45,568 bases of DNA from Spirochaetales bacterium (lineage in GTDB: Bacteria > Spirochaetota > JAAYUW01). Location: assembly GCA_012797605.1 (NCBI GenBank), contig JAAZOT010000015.1, forward strand, positions 1 through 45,568, read 5' to 3'. The notes beneath the pieces are model-generated. The model was not told the DNA's origin. It was given only the letters and a program-made list of their open reading frames with translations, and made no database searches. Position 1 is the first letter of the stretch. The number at the start of each line of letters is the position of its first letter. A program made the position numbers and the translations under genes. This document shows, piece after piece, positions 38,418-45,568 of this stretch.

Positions 38418-39950
38418 TTAAGTTTGCATATAGCTTTCTAATATATTTTTCACTAGTTTGATTTTTTCATTATAGTTCTTTAATGTTTTATAGGTATTCA
38501 TATCTATGATTGACAATAGATTTGAAATTTTTGATTGATCTTTACTATCAATCTGGTTAAATATAGTTTCAAATACAAGGTGAAATTGATTAAGGAAAAC
38601 TAAGCCCTCTTGAATTAAATTTTGAACATTTCTATTTGAATTCATTATTACATTAACAACATTGTTTTTTTGCGATGAAGATTTAATTATCGAATCCGGC
38701 TTTTTTTGAAGAAGCGAATAGTACTTTTTCAAATCCTCAAATGAGGCTTCTATATCATTTATTTTATCAACAAATGAGGAACCCTCATGAAATAAGTTAT
38801 TGATACTTTCTCTTAATGATTCATCATCATATTGAGCTTTAAATATAAAGGAATTTAGGTTTGATTTTATTTTGCCTTCCCATATATATATTATAAAAGT
38901 TCTGAAGATTTCAAAAGGTTTTACAAAAATAAGCGAAGGTAGTAGATTGCTTGAAAAAAGAGTAGAAACCTCTTCATTATATACTTCACTTTTAATAAGT
39001 TGCATATCTGAAAATAAGGTTTTTGTTATAAGGTTAATGTTTTTGTTCTTTTCATTATTTTTATATATAATTAAATAGTTTTCAATATTTTTTATTTTTT
39101 CATTTATCATTTTTAAGACATATGTCTCATTATGAGGAATTATCTTGATCTTATAATCAACCTCTTCTTTTAATGCCTTTATAATAATTTCGAATTTTGT
39201 AAAATTAAACTTGTCATTTAATATTTTTATTATTTTTTGAAGTTCTTTCTTAATTTTTGATTCATCAAAAGTAAAGTTCGGATCTTTTTCAGAATATTTT
39301 CTTAAATATGTTGTCAATACAGTAATTATCGATTCATCTATATTGGTATTTGCAATAATAAAACTTAAATCTTCAAATGCCGAGATAAATCTCGGAGAAA
39401 TTTTTATGTCATTGAAATTTAAACTTTTTTTGATTTGAGTAGAATTGAAAGATGGATTAAAAATTAAAAATAGTTCATTATAATTATGATTCACTAACTC
39501 GTAAAGTTGTTTAATTTTATTTATAGAACTATCAATCTCATTTGCAATAGTTGGTTTTAAATAGGACTTAATGTATTGGATCATCTTTTGATAGTATTTT
39601 TCTGCTTTTTCAAAACCATACTTATTAATTACTTCATCAACTCTGTCTTTTTCAAGCATCATTATATATGTGGCGACTTCTTTTGGTAGAAAAATATTGA
39701 GTATTAAAACTATAAAAGTTTCAAATATTTTTTTATTTAAGAAAAGATGATATAATGGTTTTTCGAAGTATTGACATGAGACATATAGTGAATATAAATC
39801 ATGAGCGAAACTTCCATAGAAAATTAATTTGGAAGGGTTGTAGTATTTAGGGATAAAATCTTTAATTTCTTTTTTAATCTTTTTTAGTTTTGCATAAGGA
39901 GTATCAGATTTTGGGGTGAATAAATCAAATAAAAAACTTAAAAAAGGCAT
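38418..39950 (-). CDS. Large cytoplasmic protein of unknown function, possibly spirochaete-specific
   Basis: I do not recognise this 510-residue protein with confidence. It has no signal peptide, no clear membrane span and no enzyme motif. It is mostly helical, rich in Lys, Asn, Ile and Phe. The N-terminal PFLSFLFDLFTPKSDTPYAKLKKIKKEI might be a short amphipathic membrane-associating helix. A middle section (KNYNEK-like, 200-300) is Asn/Lys-rich. Size and character recall the large 'DUF5312'-type hypotheticals I associate with Treponema and relatives, but this is a weak impression. It is the first gene of a minus-strand unit with upp and nth and is divergent from dinB across 45 nt. Confidence 0.6.
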   Translation of the reverse strand: MPFLSFLFDLFTPKSDTPYAKLKKIKKEIKDFIPKYYNPSKLIFYGSFAHDLYSLYVSCQYFEKPLYHLFLNKKIFETFIVLILNIFLPKEVATYIMMLEKDRVDEVINKYGFEKAEKYYQKMIQYIKSYLKPTIANEIDSSINKIKQLYELVNHNYNELFLIFNPSFNSTQIKKSLNFNDIKISPRFISAFEDLSFIIANTNIDESIITVLTTYLRKYSEKDPNFTFDESKIKKELQKIIKILNDKFNFTKFEIIIKALKEEVDYKIKIIPHNETYVLKMINEKIKNIENYLIIYKNNEKNKNINLITKTLFSDMQLIKSEVYNEEVSTLFSSNLLPSLIFVKPFEIFRTFIIYIWEGKIKSNLNSFIFKAQYDDESLRESINNLFHEGSSFVDKINDIEASFEDLKKYYSLLQKKPDSIIKSSSQKNNVVNVIMNSNRNVQNLIQEGLVFLNQFHLVFETIFNQIDSKDQSKISNLLSIIDMNTYKTLKNYNEKIKLVKNILESYMQT

Positions 39951-39995: not shown

Positions 39996-41165
39996 ATGCA
40001 ATATCAAAAGAGAAGAATAGCTCATTTGGATTTAGATGCTTTTTTCGCTTCAGTTGAAATAAGAGATAATCCCTTGTTAAGAGGAAAACCAATTATAATT
40101 GGAAATAAACCACCTGCAAGGGGAGTAGTTTCGACTTGTTCTTATGAAGCAAGGAAGTATGGAGTAAGATCTGGAATGCCAGTAACAACTGCACAAATTT
40201 TATGTCCTCAAGCAATTTTTATTAAACCAGATATTTCAAAATATGTTAATCAATCAAAAGAAATATTTGAAATCCTAAAAAATTTTTCCTCTTGTATAGA
40301 TAAAGTCGGTATAGATGAGGGTTACTTAGATTTAACAGGAATGGTACCTCTTTACAAAAGTTATGAAGAATTAGTAAAGACTATAAAAAAAACAATATTC
40401 GATAAATTTAAGCTAACATGTTCTATAGGAGTCAGTTCATCACCATTTATTTCTAAAATGGCTTCCGATAGATGTAAACCCGATGGTATGTTGATATTAA
40501 AACCAGAAGAAGAAGAAGATTTTTTAATGTCAAGTCCAGTTCAAACCATACCTTTTTTTGGCAAGAAAACAGTATCAATATTAGAAAGTCTTGGAATAAA
40601 ATATTTTAAAGAGATTTATAATTACGATTTACCATTTTTAATAAAAAAATTAGGTTCATTTATAGAATGCTTTTATTTAAAAAAATTTTTAAATGAAAAA
40701 ATTAAAGAAGAAAAGTCTGAAACCAAATCATTTTCAACAGAAACTACCTTTGAGCAAGATATAGATTATAACGAGGATATATTTAACTTGATTTCAAATT
40801 TTGCTGAAGAATTAGCTCAAAAGCTTAGGGATGAAGGTTATAAAGCAACTACAATAACAGCTAAAATAAGAGATGAAAATTTTGAGACATATCAAAAACA
40901 AATTACTATAAAAGAACCTACATTTAATGAGAATGATATTGCAAATTTTGCTTATGTAAATTTAGAAAGTCTTGTGAAATCAAAAATTAAGAATAAAAAG
41001 ATAAGACTAATTGGTATAAAGGTTTCAGGGTTGATTAAAGATAGTTCTAATCTTTTCGATATGATAGGAAAAGATGATATAATTTACAGGAAAATTGATG
41101 AGTTAAATAAAAAGTTTGGGAAACCACTTATAAAAAAAGGGATTATATGGAGAAAAAAAGATTAA
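39996..41165 (+). CDS. dinB: DNA polymerase IV (Y-family)
   Basis: A translesion polymerase of 389 residues. Catalytic motifs are HLDLDAFFASVE (metal Asp, ~10-21) and KVGIDEGYLDLTG (~104-116), where the usual S-x-DEAYLD is GIDEGYLD: the Asp-Glu pair is kept and Ala is Gly. Also visible are RGVVSTCSYEARKYGVRSGMP and CSIGVSSSPFISKMASDRCKPDG, then the helix-hairpin-helix IPFFGKKTVSILESLGI and the little-finger domain. No beta-clamp-binding motif is obvious at the C-terminus. The ribosome-binding site before the ATG is weak. It overlaps the next gene by 19 nt. No SOS box is seen nearby. Confidence 0.93.
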   Translation: MQYQKRRIAHLDLDAFFASVEIRDNPLLRGKPIIIGNKPPARGVVSTCSYEARKYGVRSGMPVTTAQILCPQAIFIKPDISKYVNQSKEIFEILKNFSSCIDKVGIDEGYLDLTGMVPLYKSYEELVKTIKKTIFDKFKLTCSIGVSSSPFISKMASDRCKPDGMLILKPEEEEDFLMSSPVQTIPFFGKKTVSILESLGIKYFKEIYNYDLPFLIKKLGSFIECFYLKKFLNEKIKEEKSETKSFSTETTFEQDIDYNEDIFNLISNFAEELAQKLRDEGYKATTITAKIRDENFETYQKQITIKEPTFNENDIANFAYVNLESLVKSKIKNKKIRLIGIKVSGLIKDSSNLFDMIGKDDIIYRKIDELNKKFGKPLIKKGIIWRKKD

Positions 41166-43315
41166 TAATCCTTGGTGGGTCAATGTTTGAGTTGCCTCTT
41201 TTGTTAAAAGCCAAGGAAATGGGCTATTTTATATATCTTGTCGATATAGATTCCAAGGCGGTAGGTCATAGTGTGTCGGATTTTTCTATAAATTTAAGTA
41301 CAAGAGATATAGAATCTATAAAAAGGTTTATAGATACGCTTTCTCCTTCTGAACTATCTGAGATCCAAGGAATTGGTTCTGTAGACTCTGATGTTCATGC
41401 AACAATCGCAGCTTTATCTAGTCATCTAAACTTAAAGCATTTTAATTACACGATATCAGAATTGATAACTAATAAATATAAACTTTATAATTTAATGAAG
41501 GGGTACAATGAAAAAGGGTTTTTCCCTGGTCTTTCTATAATACCGTCAGAGATATTCTGGTTTTACAATTTGAATCTTGAAAATAAAAGTTCAAATCAGA
41601 TAGTTTTAAAACCAACGGAGAATATGGGGGGACTAGGTGTCATAAAAGCAAAGAATAATGATGTTTATGATTCTTTTATGTACTCAAAAAAGCATTCACC
41701 AACTGGAGAGGTATTAGTACAGCCTTTTATTGAAGGAGATACATATAAAGTTCAATTTTTAATAGGTGAAAAAAATATAGCTATTTTGAACCTTTGGAAA
41801 ATTACAAATATGGATTCCAATTTTTTAATTGAAAGGAAAAGAGAAGATAAAGTCTCAAGAAAAATTGCTCAGCTTCTTATTGATTACTCATTAGATATTA
41901 TTCAAAGGTTAAAAATTCATCATATGCCATGTGAGATAAAATATATTGTAAGTGAAGGGAAATTATATTTTTTAGATATAAATCTTAGACTTGAAGGAGG
42001 ATTCTTTATTGATGATAGATATCATAACTATCTCGATTATGATATTTTAACAAATTATATATCTACGATTATTGGAAAAGAACCAGAGGTTAGATCTTTA
42101 GAAAAATTAGCAAGTTTTCAAAAAGATAGAAGTTGTCTTTCCTTATATAAAATTTATTTTAGAGAGACTCCTATTTTAACAGAAAACAATTTTTATTCTT
42201 TTTCAATTAAAAGAGAATTACCTGATGTCCTTTCTTCGAAATATTATGATAAAATCTATTATTCTTTTTCTAATAAAAAGCAAAAGCTAAAGATAATTTA
42301 TAAGGCAAAAGAGGAATCATATGAAAAGGAGATTCTTGTAAAAGCCGTCAAAAATTTTGCTGGTAGATGTAAAGTTTGTAAGATATGCGATGGATTGGGT
42401 TGCATTGGTGAATTACCAGGCATGGGAGGAGCTTATAGAAATGAAGCATTTATTTCAAATTATTATGATTTAAGAGCAACGCCACTAAAAGTTGAGTTGT
42501 TAAATAATAAAACTTTTAATTTTAAGAACAATTTATTTGGGAAAAATCTTCAAATTCCGATTGGAATTGCCCCTATTTCAGGAGTTGTATCAAATCTTGG
42601 TGGAGTTTTAGACGAAGAGGAATATTATAATTCAATATTACAAGGAGCTATTGAATCTAGAATATTGGGGTTTATTGGTGATGGATCAAGTGATGATAAA
42701 TACTTACAAATGTCAAAAATTCTAGAAAAAGTCAATTATGATGGGATAATTACATTAAAACCAAGATATCCTTTAGATAAAATGATAAAAAAGTTAAAAT
42801 ATTTTGAACAAACTCCTATTAATGCAATCGCAATAGATATAGATTCAGTTATTTTACCTACCATGAAAAAAAGTGACGTAAAGATAGAAAGATATAGTAT
42901 AGAAGATATTGCAATATTAAGAGAGGCTACAAATAAAAAATTAATAATAAAAGGAATAAGTAATACATACGATTGTTTAAAACTTGCAAAGTACGGAATA
43001 AATTCAATAATAATATCAAATCATGGTGGAAGAACTTTGTCTTCGATGCAATCTACGATAAAAATATTGCAAAGTATCGATATAGAATTTATAAAGAGAG
43101 AATTTCCTAATTTCTTAATTGGTTTTGATGGTGGGGTTAGAAATGGCGAAGATATAGTAAAAGTCCTGTTATACAATATAGATTTCGTTTTAATAGGTAG
43201 ACCTTTTGCAATTTATGCGGCAGGAGGGGGTAAAGAAGGGATAAAATTACTTGTAAATAAATATCTTACAGAGTTTAATGATACACTTAAACTAATCCCA
43301 TTTATTCAAAAGTAA
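41147..43315 (+). CDS. ATP-grasp ligase / FMN-dependent alpha-hydroxyacid dehydrogenase fusion
   Basis: A 722-residue two-enzyme fusion. The N-terminal ~390 residues are an ATP-grasp protein: a pre-ATP-grasp Rossmann domain (RLIILGGSMFELPLLLKAKEMGY), IVLKPTENMGGLGV with Lys155 as ATP ligand, LVQPFIEGD, and the metal site in CEIKYI...FLDINLRLEGGF. From ~405 a cysteine cluster (Cys408, 411, 414, 419) leads into an FMN alpha-hydroxyacid oxidase fold: PIGIAPISGVV, SNHGGRTL with catalytic His626, FDGGVRNGEDIVK (Asp661, Arg665) and LIGRPFAIYAAGGG. The second half alone resembles Firmicute/Treponema alpha-hydroxyacid oxidising proteins with the same Cys cluster. The fusion suggests sequential oxidation and ligation on one metabolite (inference). 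AAGGG ribosome-binding site inside dinB. Confidence 0.82.
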   Translation: MEKKRLIILGGSMFELPLLLKAKEMGYFIYLVDIDSKAVGHSVSDFSINLSTRDIESIKRFIDTLSPSELSEIQGIGSVDSDVHATIAALSSHLNLKHFNYTISELITNKYKLYNLMKGYNEKGFFPGLSIIPSEIFWFYNLNLENKSSNQIVLKPTENMGGLGVIKAKNNDVYDSFMYSKKHSPTGEVLVQPFIEGDTYKVQFLIGEKNIAILNLWKITNMDSNFLIERKREDKVSRKIAQLLIDYSLDIIQRLKIHHMPCEIKYIVSEGKLYFLDINLRLEGGFFIDDRYHNYLDYDILTNYISTIIGKEPEVRSLEKLASFQKDRSCLSLYKIYFRETPILTENNFYSFSIKRELPDVLSSKYYDKIYYSFSNKKQKLKIIYKAKEESYEKEILVKAVKNFAGRCKVCKICDGLGCIGELPGMGGAYRNEAFISNYYDLRATPLKVELLNNKTFNFKNNLFGKNLQIPIGIAPISGVVSNLGGVLDEEEYYNSILQGAIESRILGFIGDGSSDDKYLQMSKILEKVNYDGIITLKPRYPLDKMIKKLKYFEQTPINAIAIDIDSVILPTMKKSDVKIERYSIEDIAILREATNKKLIIKGISNTYDCLKLAKYGINSIIISNHGGRTLSSMQSTIKILQSIDIEFIKREFPNFLIGFDGGVRNGEDIVKVLLYNIDFVLIGRPFAIYAAGGGKEGIKLLVNKYLTEFNDTLKLIPFIQK

Positions 43316-43385: not shown

Positions 43386-44279
43386 GTGGAACTTAATGAT
43401 AAATTAAATGAAGATAAGGATTTTATAACTGAAGAAGAGAATATTACTAACGAGGATTTTTCATCAACAACAACTGGTTTTATAGGTGGTTTAAAATACT
43501 CTAAGCTTCTTAATGGTTCAAAAAATAGATGGAAAACTTTGATAAGCGAAGTCAAAAAATATGATCCGTCAAACCCAATTATTTCAGCTATATTTAATAC
43601 AATCATATTAGGTTTATATATTCCAAGGTATTATTATCATAAAATTAAAGGTAAAGAAGAGCAATATACATATAAAATAGTAAACAACTGGGGTAAGACT
43701 TTAATTAAAATTGCCAAAATGAATCTTGAACAAATTGGTAAAGTCAATATTGAAAAAGATAGATCCTATGTTTTTATTTCAAATCATACATCTCCATATG
43801 ATATCCCCGTTATTTATGGTACCCTACCCGTCTTGGCGGGATTTGTTGCAAATATTGAGTTATCAAAAATGCCAGTAATGAATTTTTGGATGAAAAAAGC
43901 CCATTCTATATTTGTAGATATCTACAACCAAAAATCTAAAGTATCTACACTCAAAAGGATTCTTGAAAATTTAAAAAATAAACAACATGTTATAATTTTC
44001 CCAGAAGGGAAAATGTCAAAAGATGGGAATCTTCAAGAGTTCAATAGAGGTGGTTTAAAAGCTGCACAGATAGGACAGTCAGTTATTATACCTATTGCTT
44101 TGATAGGGGTAAGAGATGTTATTCCACCTGGTGGTTTTACATTAAAAGTTGATCAAAAGGTTAGAATATGTTTTGGCGAACCTATTGATGTTTTGAATTT
44201 ATCATCTCAAGAGAATAAGGATATAGATAAAATCGCTTTTGATACTATTAATTCTTTAATAAAAAAATATTCATTTTGA
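43386..44279 (+). CDS. plsC: 1-acylglycerol-3-phosphate O-acyltransferase (PlsC family)
   Basis: PlsC acylates lysophosphatidic acid to phosphatidic acid at the inner membrane. The acyltransferase box NHTSPYD (~130-136, H-x4-D), the Arg/Asn-containing second block, FPEGKMSKDG (~205-214) and the late VIIPIALIGVRD are present. Length 297 includes an N-terminal extension of ~90 residues: first acidic and polar (residues 1-30), then a hydrophobic segment around ~60-75 (IISAIFNTIILGLYIPRYYY), which may anchor the protein. The start is GTG at 43386 with GAGGT six nt upstream; a later ATG would cut the extension. The fusion protein gene ends 70 nt upstream. It would feed precursor to the pgsA-pgpA product (known pathway). 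Confidence 0.87.
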   Translation: MELNDKLNEDKDFITEEENITNEDFSSTTTGFIGGLKYSKLLNGSKNRWKTLISEVKKYDPSNPIISAIFNTIILGLYIPRYYYHKIKGKEEQYTYKIVNNWGKTLIKIAKMNLEQIGKVNIEKDRSYVFISNHTSPYDIPVIYGTLPVLAGFVANIELSKMPVMNFWMKKAHSIFVDIYNQKSKVSTLKRILENLKNKQHVIIFPEGKMSKDGNLQEFNRGGLKAAQIGQSVIIPIALIGVRDVIPPGGFTLKVDQKVRICFGEPIDVLNLSSQENKDIDKIAFDTINSLIKKYSF

Positions 44280-44413
44280 TCTCATCTTCTATTTATAATT
44301 TTCATTTTGACTGAATTATTTAAACAATGTATTTTTTTTTCAACAAATATTGTATAAAATTTTATAACAAACATATTTATTAGATATTTAAAATTTCATA
44401 TTTTTCATTTTAT

Positions 44414-44430
44414 ATACAATTCAATTGTAT
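44414..44430 (+). promoter_or_regulatory. Perfect 17-bp palindrome, candidate activator site for the sigma-54 promoter
   Basis: ATACAATT-C-AATTGTAT, arms of 8 bp. Its centre (44422) is about 79 bp upstream of the predicted start point. A related weaker site (ACAA-ATA-TTGT, 44343-44353, ending in the identical heptamer ATTGTAT at 44349-44355) lies 75 bp further upstream. This distance suits a bacterial enhancer-binding protein. Binding is inferred. Confidence 0.5.
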
Positions 44431-44474
44431 TTTGAACTTATAGAATTTATCTATTTCTTATTTTTAAATTTTAA

Positions 44475-44490
44475 TGGCACAAAAATTGCT
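44475..44490 (+). promoter_or_regulatory. Sigma-54 (-24/-12) promoter of the sigma factor gene
   Basis: TGGCAC (44475-44480), five bases, then TTGCT (44486-44490). The GG and GC doublets are separated by exactly 10 bp, as required for RpoN promoters, and nine conserved consensus bases match. The predicted transcript would start near 44501, placing GAGGAG (44503-44508) just inside it and the ATG at 44521. Confidence 0.8.
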
Positions 44491-44520
44491 AAATATTTTA
44501 TTGAGGAGATTTAAAATATT

Positions 44521-45249
44521 ATGATGGCTACGAAGCAGATTATTATTAAAGATTTTTCAAAAATTGAATTATCTTGCTTAGTAGAAATGGCAAAGAATGG
44601 CGATAATTCAAGTTTTCAAAGGGTGTTGGATGTTTTTAAACCTTTAATATATTCTTTGGCAACAAAATTTGCTTCTAATCCATCATATAAAGATGACTTA
44701 ATCCAAGAAGGAATTATAGGTTTATATTGTGCAATAAATAAATATGATATAAATAAAAGTGAAAATTTCGGCATGTATGCATATTTTTGGATAAAACAGG
44801 CCATTTCAAGAATGGCAGACAAATCAAGTTCATTAATTCGAATTCCGATAAGAAAACATCAAAAAATAAGAAAGATGAAAAGAGAAAAAAATAAAAATAA
44901 AGATAATATTAATTCTTTAGTAAATTACAACTTTAGTTTTATATCTATTGATGATTCTGGTTTCAATCAAAAAGACCACTCTCTTATTGAAAAAATACCA
45001 TCTAATGATAATCCAGTATCATATTTAGAAAGTAAAATGAACGAAGAAGATTTTGAATTTTTATTGTCAATATTAAATAAAAGAGAAAGGGATATCATCG
45101 AAAAAAGATATGGCCTTACTTCAACTATCCCTATGACATTAAAAGAAATAGCTCATCAATATAAACTTACTTCAGAATCCATTAGGAAAATAGAAATTCA
45201 AGCTCTTATCAAAATGAAAAAAGCATTTCAGACTTGTATTGACTCATAA
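44521..45249 (+). CDS. Sigma-70 family (RpoS/group 2-3-like) sigma factor
   Basis: The 242-residue protein has sigma region 2 (~20-100: DDLIQEGIIGLYCAINKYD, FGMYAYFWIKQAISR), a region 2.4/3 boundary with LIRIPIRKHQKIRKM, and a complete region 4 (~175-240: REDIIEKRYGL, TLKEIAHQYKLTSESIRKIEIQALIKMKK). Region 1.1 is absent and region 3 is short, so it is not the primary sigma factor. Size and features recall Borrelia RpoS, itself transcribed by RpoN; the sigma-54 promoter immediately upstream strengthens that analogy. Two adjacent ATGs (44521, 44524) follow a GAGGAG ribosome-binding site. Assignment as RpoS versus another alternative factor (for example FliA-like) is not certain; FliA usually has a full region 3. 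Confidence 0.88.
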   Translation: MMATKQIIIKDFSKIELSCLVEMAKNGDNSSFQRVLDVFKPLIYSLATKFASNPSYKDDLIQEGIIGLYCAINKYDINKSENFGMYAYFWIKQAISRMADKSSSLIRIPIRKHQKIRKMKREKNKNKDNINSLVNYNFSFISIDDSGFNQKDHSLIEKIPSNDNPVSYLESKMNEEDFEFLLSILNKRERDIIEKRYGLTSTIPMTLKEIAHQYKLTSESIRKIEIQALIKMKKAFQTCIDS

Positions 45250-45267: not shown

Positions 45268-45568
45268 CTAATATCTTTCAAATAATTCTCTAATAGAAAT
45301 GAATTCATAATTTAGAAAGTAATGCTTGTAAGCTAATTTTTGCAAAAAATTTAAGGTTTGTTCTTTTGTATTGTGCCCAATAATGATTATAAAATCTCTA
45401 GTTTTTAAAAGATTTAATCCTTTTAAGAATTCTTTTTCTGGTAAATCCTCTTCTTCATTATAATCTAAAAAAAGATTATTTTCAAAAATAGGATAACCAA
45501 GACTTTTGCCTATAGAGGGAAAAAGAGAATTATTTATTGTATGAGAATCTATAAATCTTATTCCCTTT
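45268..45568 (-). CDS. Divergent polysaccharide deacetylase family protein (C-terminal part)
   Basis: The window cuts this gene; only the last 100 residues are visible, reading leftwards to the TAG at 45268-45270. The sequence has FIDSHTINNSL, GYPIFENNLFLDYNEEEDLP and IIIIGHNTKEQTLNFLQKL, then EFISIRELFERY. This is the pattern of the YibQ/DUF610 'divergent polysaccharide deacetylase' family (DS-x-T, FLD, IGH). Canonical family members are periplasmic and modify envelope glycans, but the signal peptide would be outside the window. It is convergent with the sigma factor gene; 18 nt separate the stops. No terminator is visible between them. Confidence 0.75.
   Translation of the reverse strand, partial: KGIRFIDSHTINNSLFPSIGKSLGYPIFENNLFLDYNEEEDLPEKEFLKGLNLLKTRDFIIIIGHNTKEQTLNFLQKLAYKHYFLNYEFISIRELFERY

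Follow-up and report, generated by a model that had tools for sequence, protein, structure and literature searches.

Predicted sigma-54 promoters before alternative sigma-70-family genes in an Exilispira-type spirochaete and in other Spirochaetota

The cascade from sigma-54 (RpoN) to sigma-S has been described in the open-access literature for Borrelia, where it is treated as a matter of virulence. In Borrelia burgdorferi, rpoS is said to be the sole gene for which a sigma-54-type promoter is known (PMC11109971), and activation by Rrp2 has been reported to need neither binding nor upstream sequence (PMC1976401). Sigma-54 also controls fliA, the gene for sigma-28, in the flagellar cascades of Geobacter and Vibrio (PMC2725144). 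A 2025 survey of sigma-54 regulons predicted such promoters for chaperone genes, including one for a small heat-shock protein, in Bacteroidota and Planctomycetota, and associated COG0568 sigma factors with sigma-54 in general; it does not name spirochaetes in either connection (PMC12316311).

Here we describe a related arrangement in a window of 45,568 nt (contig JAAZOT010000015.1) from the Exilispira-type draft genome of a free-living spirochaete (G000; 2.07 Mb in 104 contigs, about 90% complete). Exilispira is a spirochaete genus with a single named species, E. thermophila. For comparison we used two congeners of G000 (G001 and G002) and a relative from the same order (G003). The G001 record, DYJT01000026.1, is filed as Brachyspira murdochii; it belongs with the Exilispira-type genomes and is probably mislabelled, because its sigma-54 activators are 88–90% identical to those of G000 (and about 78% to those of G002, an Exilispira record).

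Near the end of the window lies a gene that we call sigA (Table 1). Its product scores above the Pfam cut-offs for both Sigma70_r2 and Sigma70_r4; the orthologues in G001 and G002 are 66% and 55% identical, and the nearest homologue in G003 is 43% identical over part of its length. We counted as a sigma-54 site any TGGCAY-N5-TTGCW upstream of a gene with its GG and GC doublets 10 bp apart. The sequence before sigA, TGGCAC-N5-TTGCT with five A residues as spacer, has these doublets at 44476–44477 and 44488–44489. The window has no other exact match; dinucleotide shuffles of it give an expectation of 0.01. The start codon is 30 nt downstream, transcription is predicted to start near 44501, and GAGGAG then directly follows. 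An exact site is also found shortly 5′ of the orthologues in G001 and G002 and of the nearest homologue in G003. The claim of the sequence-only reading that a sigma-54 promoter precedes a sigma-70-family gene thus holds up: the match is exact and is kept in every close relative examined, and on these sequence grounds we regard it as a real sigma-54 promoter sequence. A scan of the region for sigma-70 promoters returned matches no more numerous than in shuffles.

Table 1. Features in and around the sigA promoter region (window coordinates).
Feature	Position	Strand	Basis
Acyltransferase (PlsC-type) gene, upstream neighbour of sigA	43386..44279	+	PF01553
Block ACAAATATTGTATAAAATTTT following a T tract, conserved upstream of sigA; candidate activator site or second promoter	44343..44363	+	Pattern ACAAANNNNGTATAAAATNTT
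Palindrome ATACAATTCAATTGTAT	44414..44430	.	Shuffle P 0.10–0.18; not conserved; probably chance
Sigma-54 (−24/−12) promoter TGGCACAAAAATTGCT of sigA	44475..44490	+	Exact consensus match; kept at orthologous genes in G001, G002 and G003
Ribosome-binding-site-like GAGGAG	44503..44508	+	Sequence
sigA, 242-aa sigma-70-family factor with regions 2 and 4	44521..45249	+	Pfam PF04542, PF04545
Divergent polysaccharide deacetylase, convergent downstream neighbour, cut by the window end	45268..45567	−	PF04748

The same reading had called the factor RpoS-like, a name that is fair only loosely. As in the Borrelia system, an exact sigma-54 promoter lies directly before an alternative sigma-70-family gene, and the best match of SigA in Borrelia-type genomes is a 267-aa RpoS-type gene and not RpoD, although identity to that protein is only about 35%. 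In a tree of 45 proteins SigA groups with Borrelia RpoS and others (96/91). Its branch is very long (5.6 changes per column), which makes the exact placement uncertain, and the grouping may be a long-branch effect. An NCBIfam scan reached no curated sigma equivalog, and SigA falls below the cut-offs for proteobacterial RpoS (112.7 versus 378.7 and 97.4 versus 394 bits for TIGR02394/PRK05657).

Only three exact sites occur in the 2.07 Mb of G000, all intergenic and close to start codons. They precede sigA, hsp20 and another sigma-70 gene, sigB, whose 331-aa product has regions 1.2, 2, 3 and 4. Each of these genes has an intergenic exact site in G001, G002 and G003 too; many additional exact matches in those three genomes fall within coding sequence, and sites with one mismatch number 124 in G000. 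In G001 and G002, clpB also has an exact site, about 270–330 nt upstream of its start. The Exilispira-type system thus differs from that of Borrelia in having two predicted sigma-54-driven sigma-70 genes plus hsp20 (and clpB in the congeners). It resembles the fliA cascades in that sigma-54 would drive the gene of a sigma-70-family factor, but the fliA product is a flagellar factor encoded within flagellar operons, whereas sigA and sigB do not lie in such operons. An hsp20-type gene under a predicted sigma-54 promoter recalls the chaperone cluster of Bacteroidota and Planctomycetota, which the survey does not tie to a sigma cascade and does not report from spirochaetes (PMC12316311). Control of heat-shock proteins by sigma-54 is a prediction for the Exilispira order.

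Two further sites were seen in single genomes. An lpxC-like gene, in G001 only, has an exact sigma-54-like site within about 10–20 nt of its start codon, which leaves too little room for an ordinary leader unless translation begins further inside the gene. In G003, a YfcC-like transporter gene that has a sigma-54 site follows closely after the gene for a 648-aa sigma-54 activator, and the two are likely a local activator–target pair.

We then used SigA as a query against 296 Spirochaetota genomes, so that promoters played no part in the selection. Of the matches other than RpoD nearly all were scanned, leaving out a few Borrelia-type loci that were near-identical; in all, 93 sigma genes were searched for exact sites from −250 to +60 relative to the first start. 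An exact site was found before 43 of 76 alternative sigma-70 genes. By family, which is the fairer measure since species are not independent, the count was 16 of 25; a binomial value computed over the genes exaggerates the strength of the result for the same reason. None of the 17 control sigma genes had an exact site (0/9 for RpoD and 0/8 for a distinct 258-aa class), and the background was 0.0021 exact sites per region in the same loci and 0.0005 in shuffles. The rpoS loci of Borrelia-type genomes, our positive control, showed the same kind of site; family f36 was taken as Borreliaceae with rpoS from gene position (about 810–840 kb in many) and a length of about 267 aa. A clade of 300–370-aa factors (families f8, f19, f27, f46 and part of f32) had no exact site in the scan. 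Three changes account for the promoter trait on the 45-protein tree, in which sigB lies within a second promoter-bearing group.

Judged by these promoter sequences, alternative sigma-70 genes preceded by a sigma-54 promoter are common in the Spirochaetota, Borrelia RpoN–RpoS included, and the Borrelia cascade seems to be a single instance of an old and widespread circuit. That 16 of 25 families share the arrangement, and that many of these are presumably environmental, suggests a circuit older than parasitism. We see an even chance that a sigma-54-to-sigma-70 relay is ancestral in the phylum, became doubled and linked to chaperones in the Exilispira order, and persists in Borrelia as a single RpoN–RpoS step that was later adapted to the host. 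This pattern weighs more than the single sigA locus, and free-living relatives would be the place to examine which signal and activator the circuit uses and whether it needs an upstream site. We did not find a phylum-wide pattern in spirochaetes stated in the open-access literature searched, and we regard its novelty as provisional.

G000 encodes two full-length sigma-54 AAA+ activators (PF00158 at about 4e-71 and 4e-72), which are 78–90% identical to their counterparts in the congeners. One is GAF-type and the other is a response regulator with a histidine kinase gene about 6 kb away; both carry a Fis-type HTH domain, that of the GAF-type protein scoring just under the Pfam cut-off. Response-regulator activators are thus present as in Borrelia, but Exilispira-type genomes have two or more activators as opposed to the single Rrp2. 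We propose that transcription of sigA is switched on by sigma-54 RNA polymerase at the −24/−12 site. The holoenzyme would stay closed there until an enhancer-binding AAA+ activator, either the GAF-type or the response-regulator one, opened the promoter, and SigA would then direct a second set of genes. SigB and Hsp20, with ClpB in two congeners, would be parallel outputs of the same switch, their transcription likewise depending on the predicted sites. Sigma-54 would then be largely a stress switch in these bacteria, acting on chaperones directly and, by way of sigA and sigB, on a second wave of genes; that the signal is stress is suggested by the chaperone genes. The promoter sequences, their conservation, and the rpoN and activator genes of close relatives are the observed basis of this reading. 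Taken as a whole, with sigA under sigma-54, the stress switch and the phylum-wide relay that includes Borrelia, we give it a probability of roughly 0.85.

Such a switch needs rpoN, whose absence from the genome the sequence-only reading took as a refutation; it also suggested looking for activator genes. The activators are there, but a profile search (Sigma54_DBD, PF04552) did not find rpoN in the G000 draft assembly, a refutation in form only; the gene is present in G001, G002 and G003, and a search of 41 genomes found it in 37. This absence lends something to the view that the −24/−12 match is accidental and that an ordinary sigma-70-type promoter alone drives sigA, for instance one in the conserved block at 44343–44363, which contains the −10-like GTATAAAAT. 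We consider such an accident extremely improbable. The exact site has been kept at the sigA orthologues though the remaining intergenic sequence has diverged, the same genomes have exact sites before sigB and hsp20, and 16 families show such sites; moreover, both promoters may coexist, so the block is no argument against sigma-54. The contrast between G000 and the 37 genomes could also mean that rpoN has truly been lost from the species and that the sigA promoter is a relic. In G001, G002 and G003, however, a concatenated query found the block HprK-HPF-RpoN-KdsD-KdsA-PdxA, and the same six-gene query had no match at all in G000, from which the activator adjoining this block in G001 and G003 is also absent. 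Because HprK, HPF, KdsD, KdsA and PdxA are missing along with RpoN while the relatives keep them, a gap in the assembly is favoured: true loss would have to remove all of them simultaneously, and G000 is more readily explained by a missing stretch than by six unrelated genes being lost. A gene that by eye resembles the Kdo transferase WaaA still adjoins sigB in G000, which also points to a gap, since it would be of little use without KdsA. The close identity of both activators to those of the congeners and the intact state of all three promoters argue against loss as well. We therefore think loss of rpoN very unlikely and infer that the gene probably lies in an assembly gap.

The sequence-only reading pointed to a perfect 17-bp palindrome at about −79 as an activator site, which would be unlike Borrelia. 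Its letters are as described, with perfect 8-bp arms at a distance usual for activator sites, but they do not stand out as a signal: palindromes with 8-bp arms arose in 10% (loop ≤1) to 18% (loop ≤4) of shuffles of the 241-nt, 85% A+T intergenic stretch, and the window holds seven others. Among the four genomes ATACAATTCAATTGTAT has no second perfect copy, and the orthologous promoters of G001 and G002 do not preserve it at the aligned position. The repeats at hsp20 and clpB, moreover, have a different layout. On the shuffles and the lack of conservation we rejected the palindrome as the sigA activator site and give it little chance. The half-similar site noted 75 bp further upstream overlaps the block at 44343–44363, which is conserved in three species. 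The pattern ACAAANNNNGTATAAAATNTT occurred only upstream of sigA in the three congeneric species (181 loci plus the window, about 0.72 Mb with repeats counted), at 132 nt from the sigma-54 site in G000, 119 nt in G001 and 340 nt in G002. The block could serve as an activator site, or it could be a second promoter. At the chaperone genes, tandem GTA-N9-TAC units 18–19 bp apart look like putative activator sites: two at hsp20 in G000, four at hsp20 in G001 (133–187 nt upstream in both) and two at clpB in G001. We defined this motif by eye from these regions before testing it; the paired pattern has no further place in the four genomes, but a reversed control pattern gave three matches in G000, and since chance matches do occur the finding rests on position. 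A GTATA-N5-TATAC site, in tandem at hsp20 (G000 and G001) and clpB (G001) and single at sigB of G000, was rejected as a common site of all sigma-54 promoters, since neither sigA nor the promoters of G002 have it. The tandem repeat was looked for at sigA and is absent there. That sigA has no activator site in common with hsp20 and clpB would fit a variant of the preferred reading in which activation of sigA requires no specific site upstream, as in Borrelia, where activation was reported to depend on neither binding nor upstream sequence (PMC1976401). The Fis-type HTH domains of the activators and the conservation of the upstream block speak against it, and we hold this variant as a tentative possibility.

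Elsewhere in the window, a 510-aa ORF (38418–39950) has no match in Pfam or NCBIfam. A 722-aa protein (41147–43315) joins an ATP-grasp-like N-terminal part to an FMN-dependent dehydrogenase-like C-terminal part, an unusual combination.
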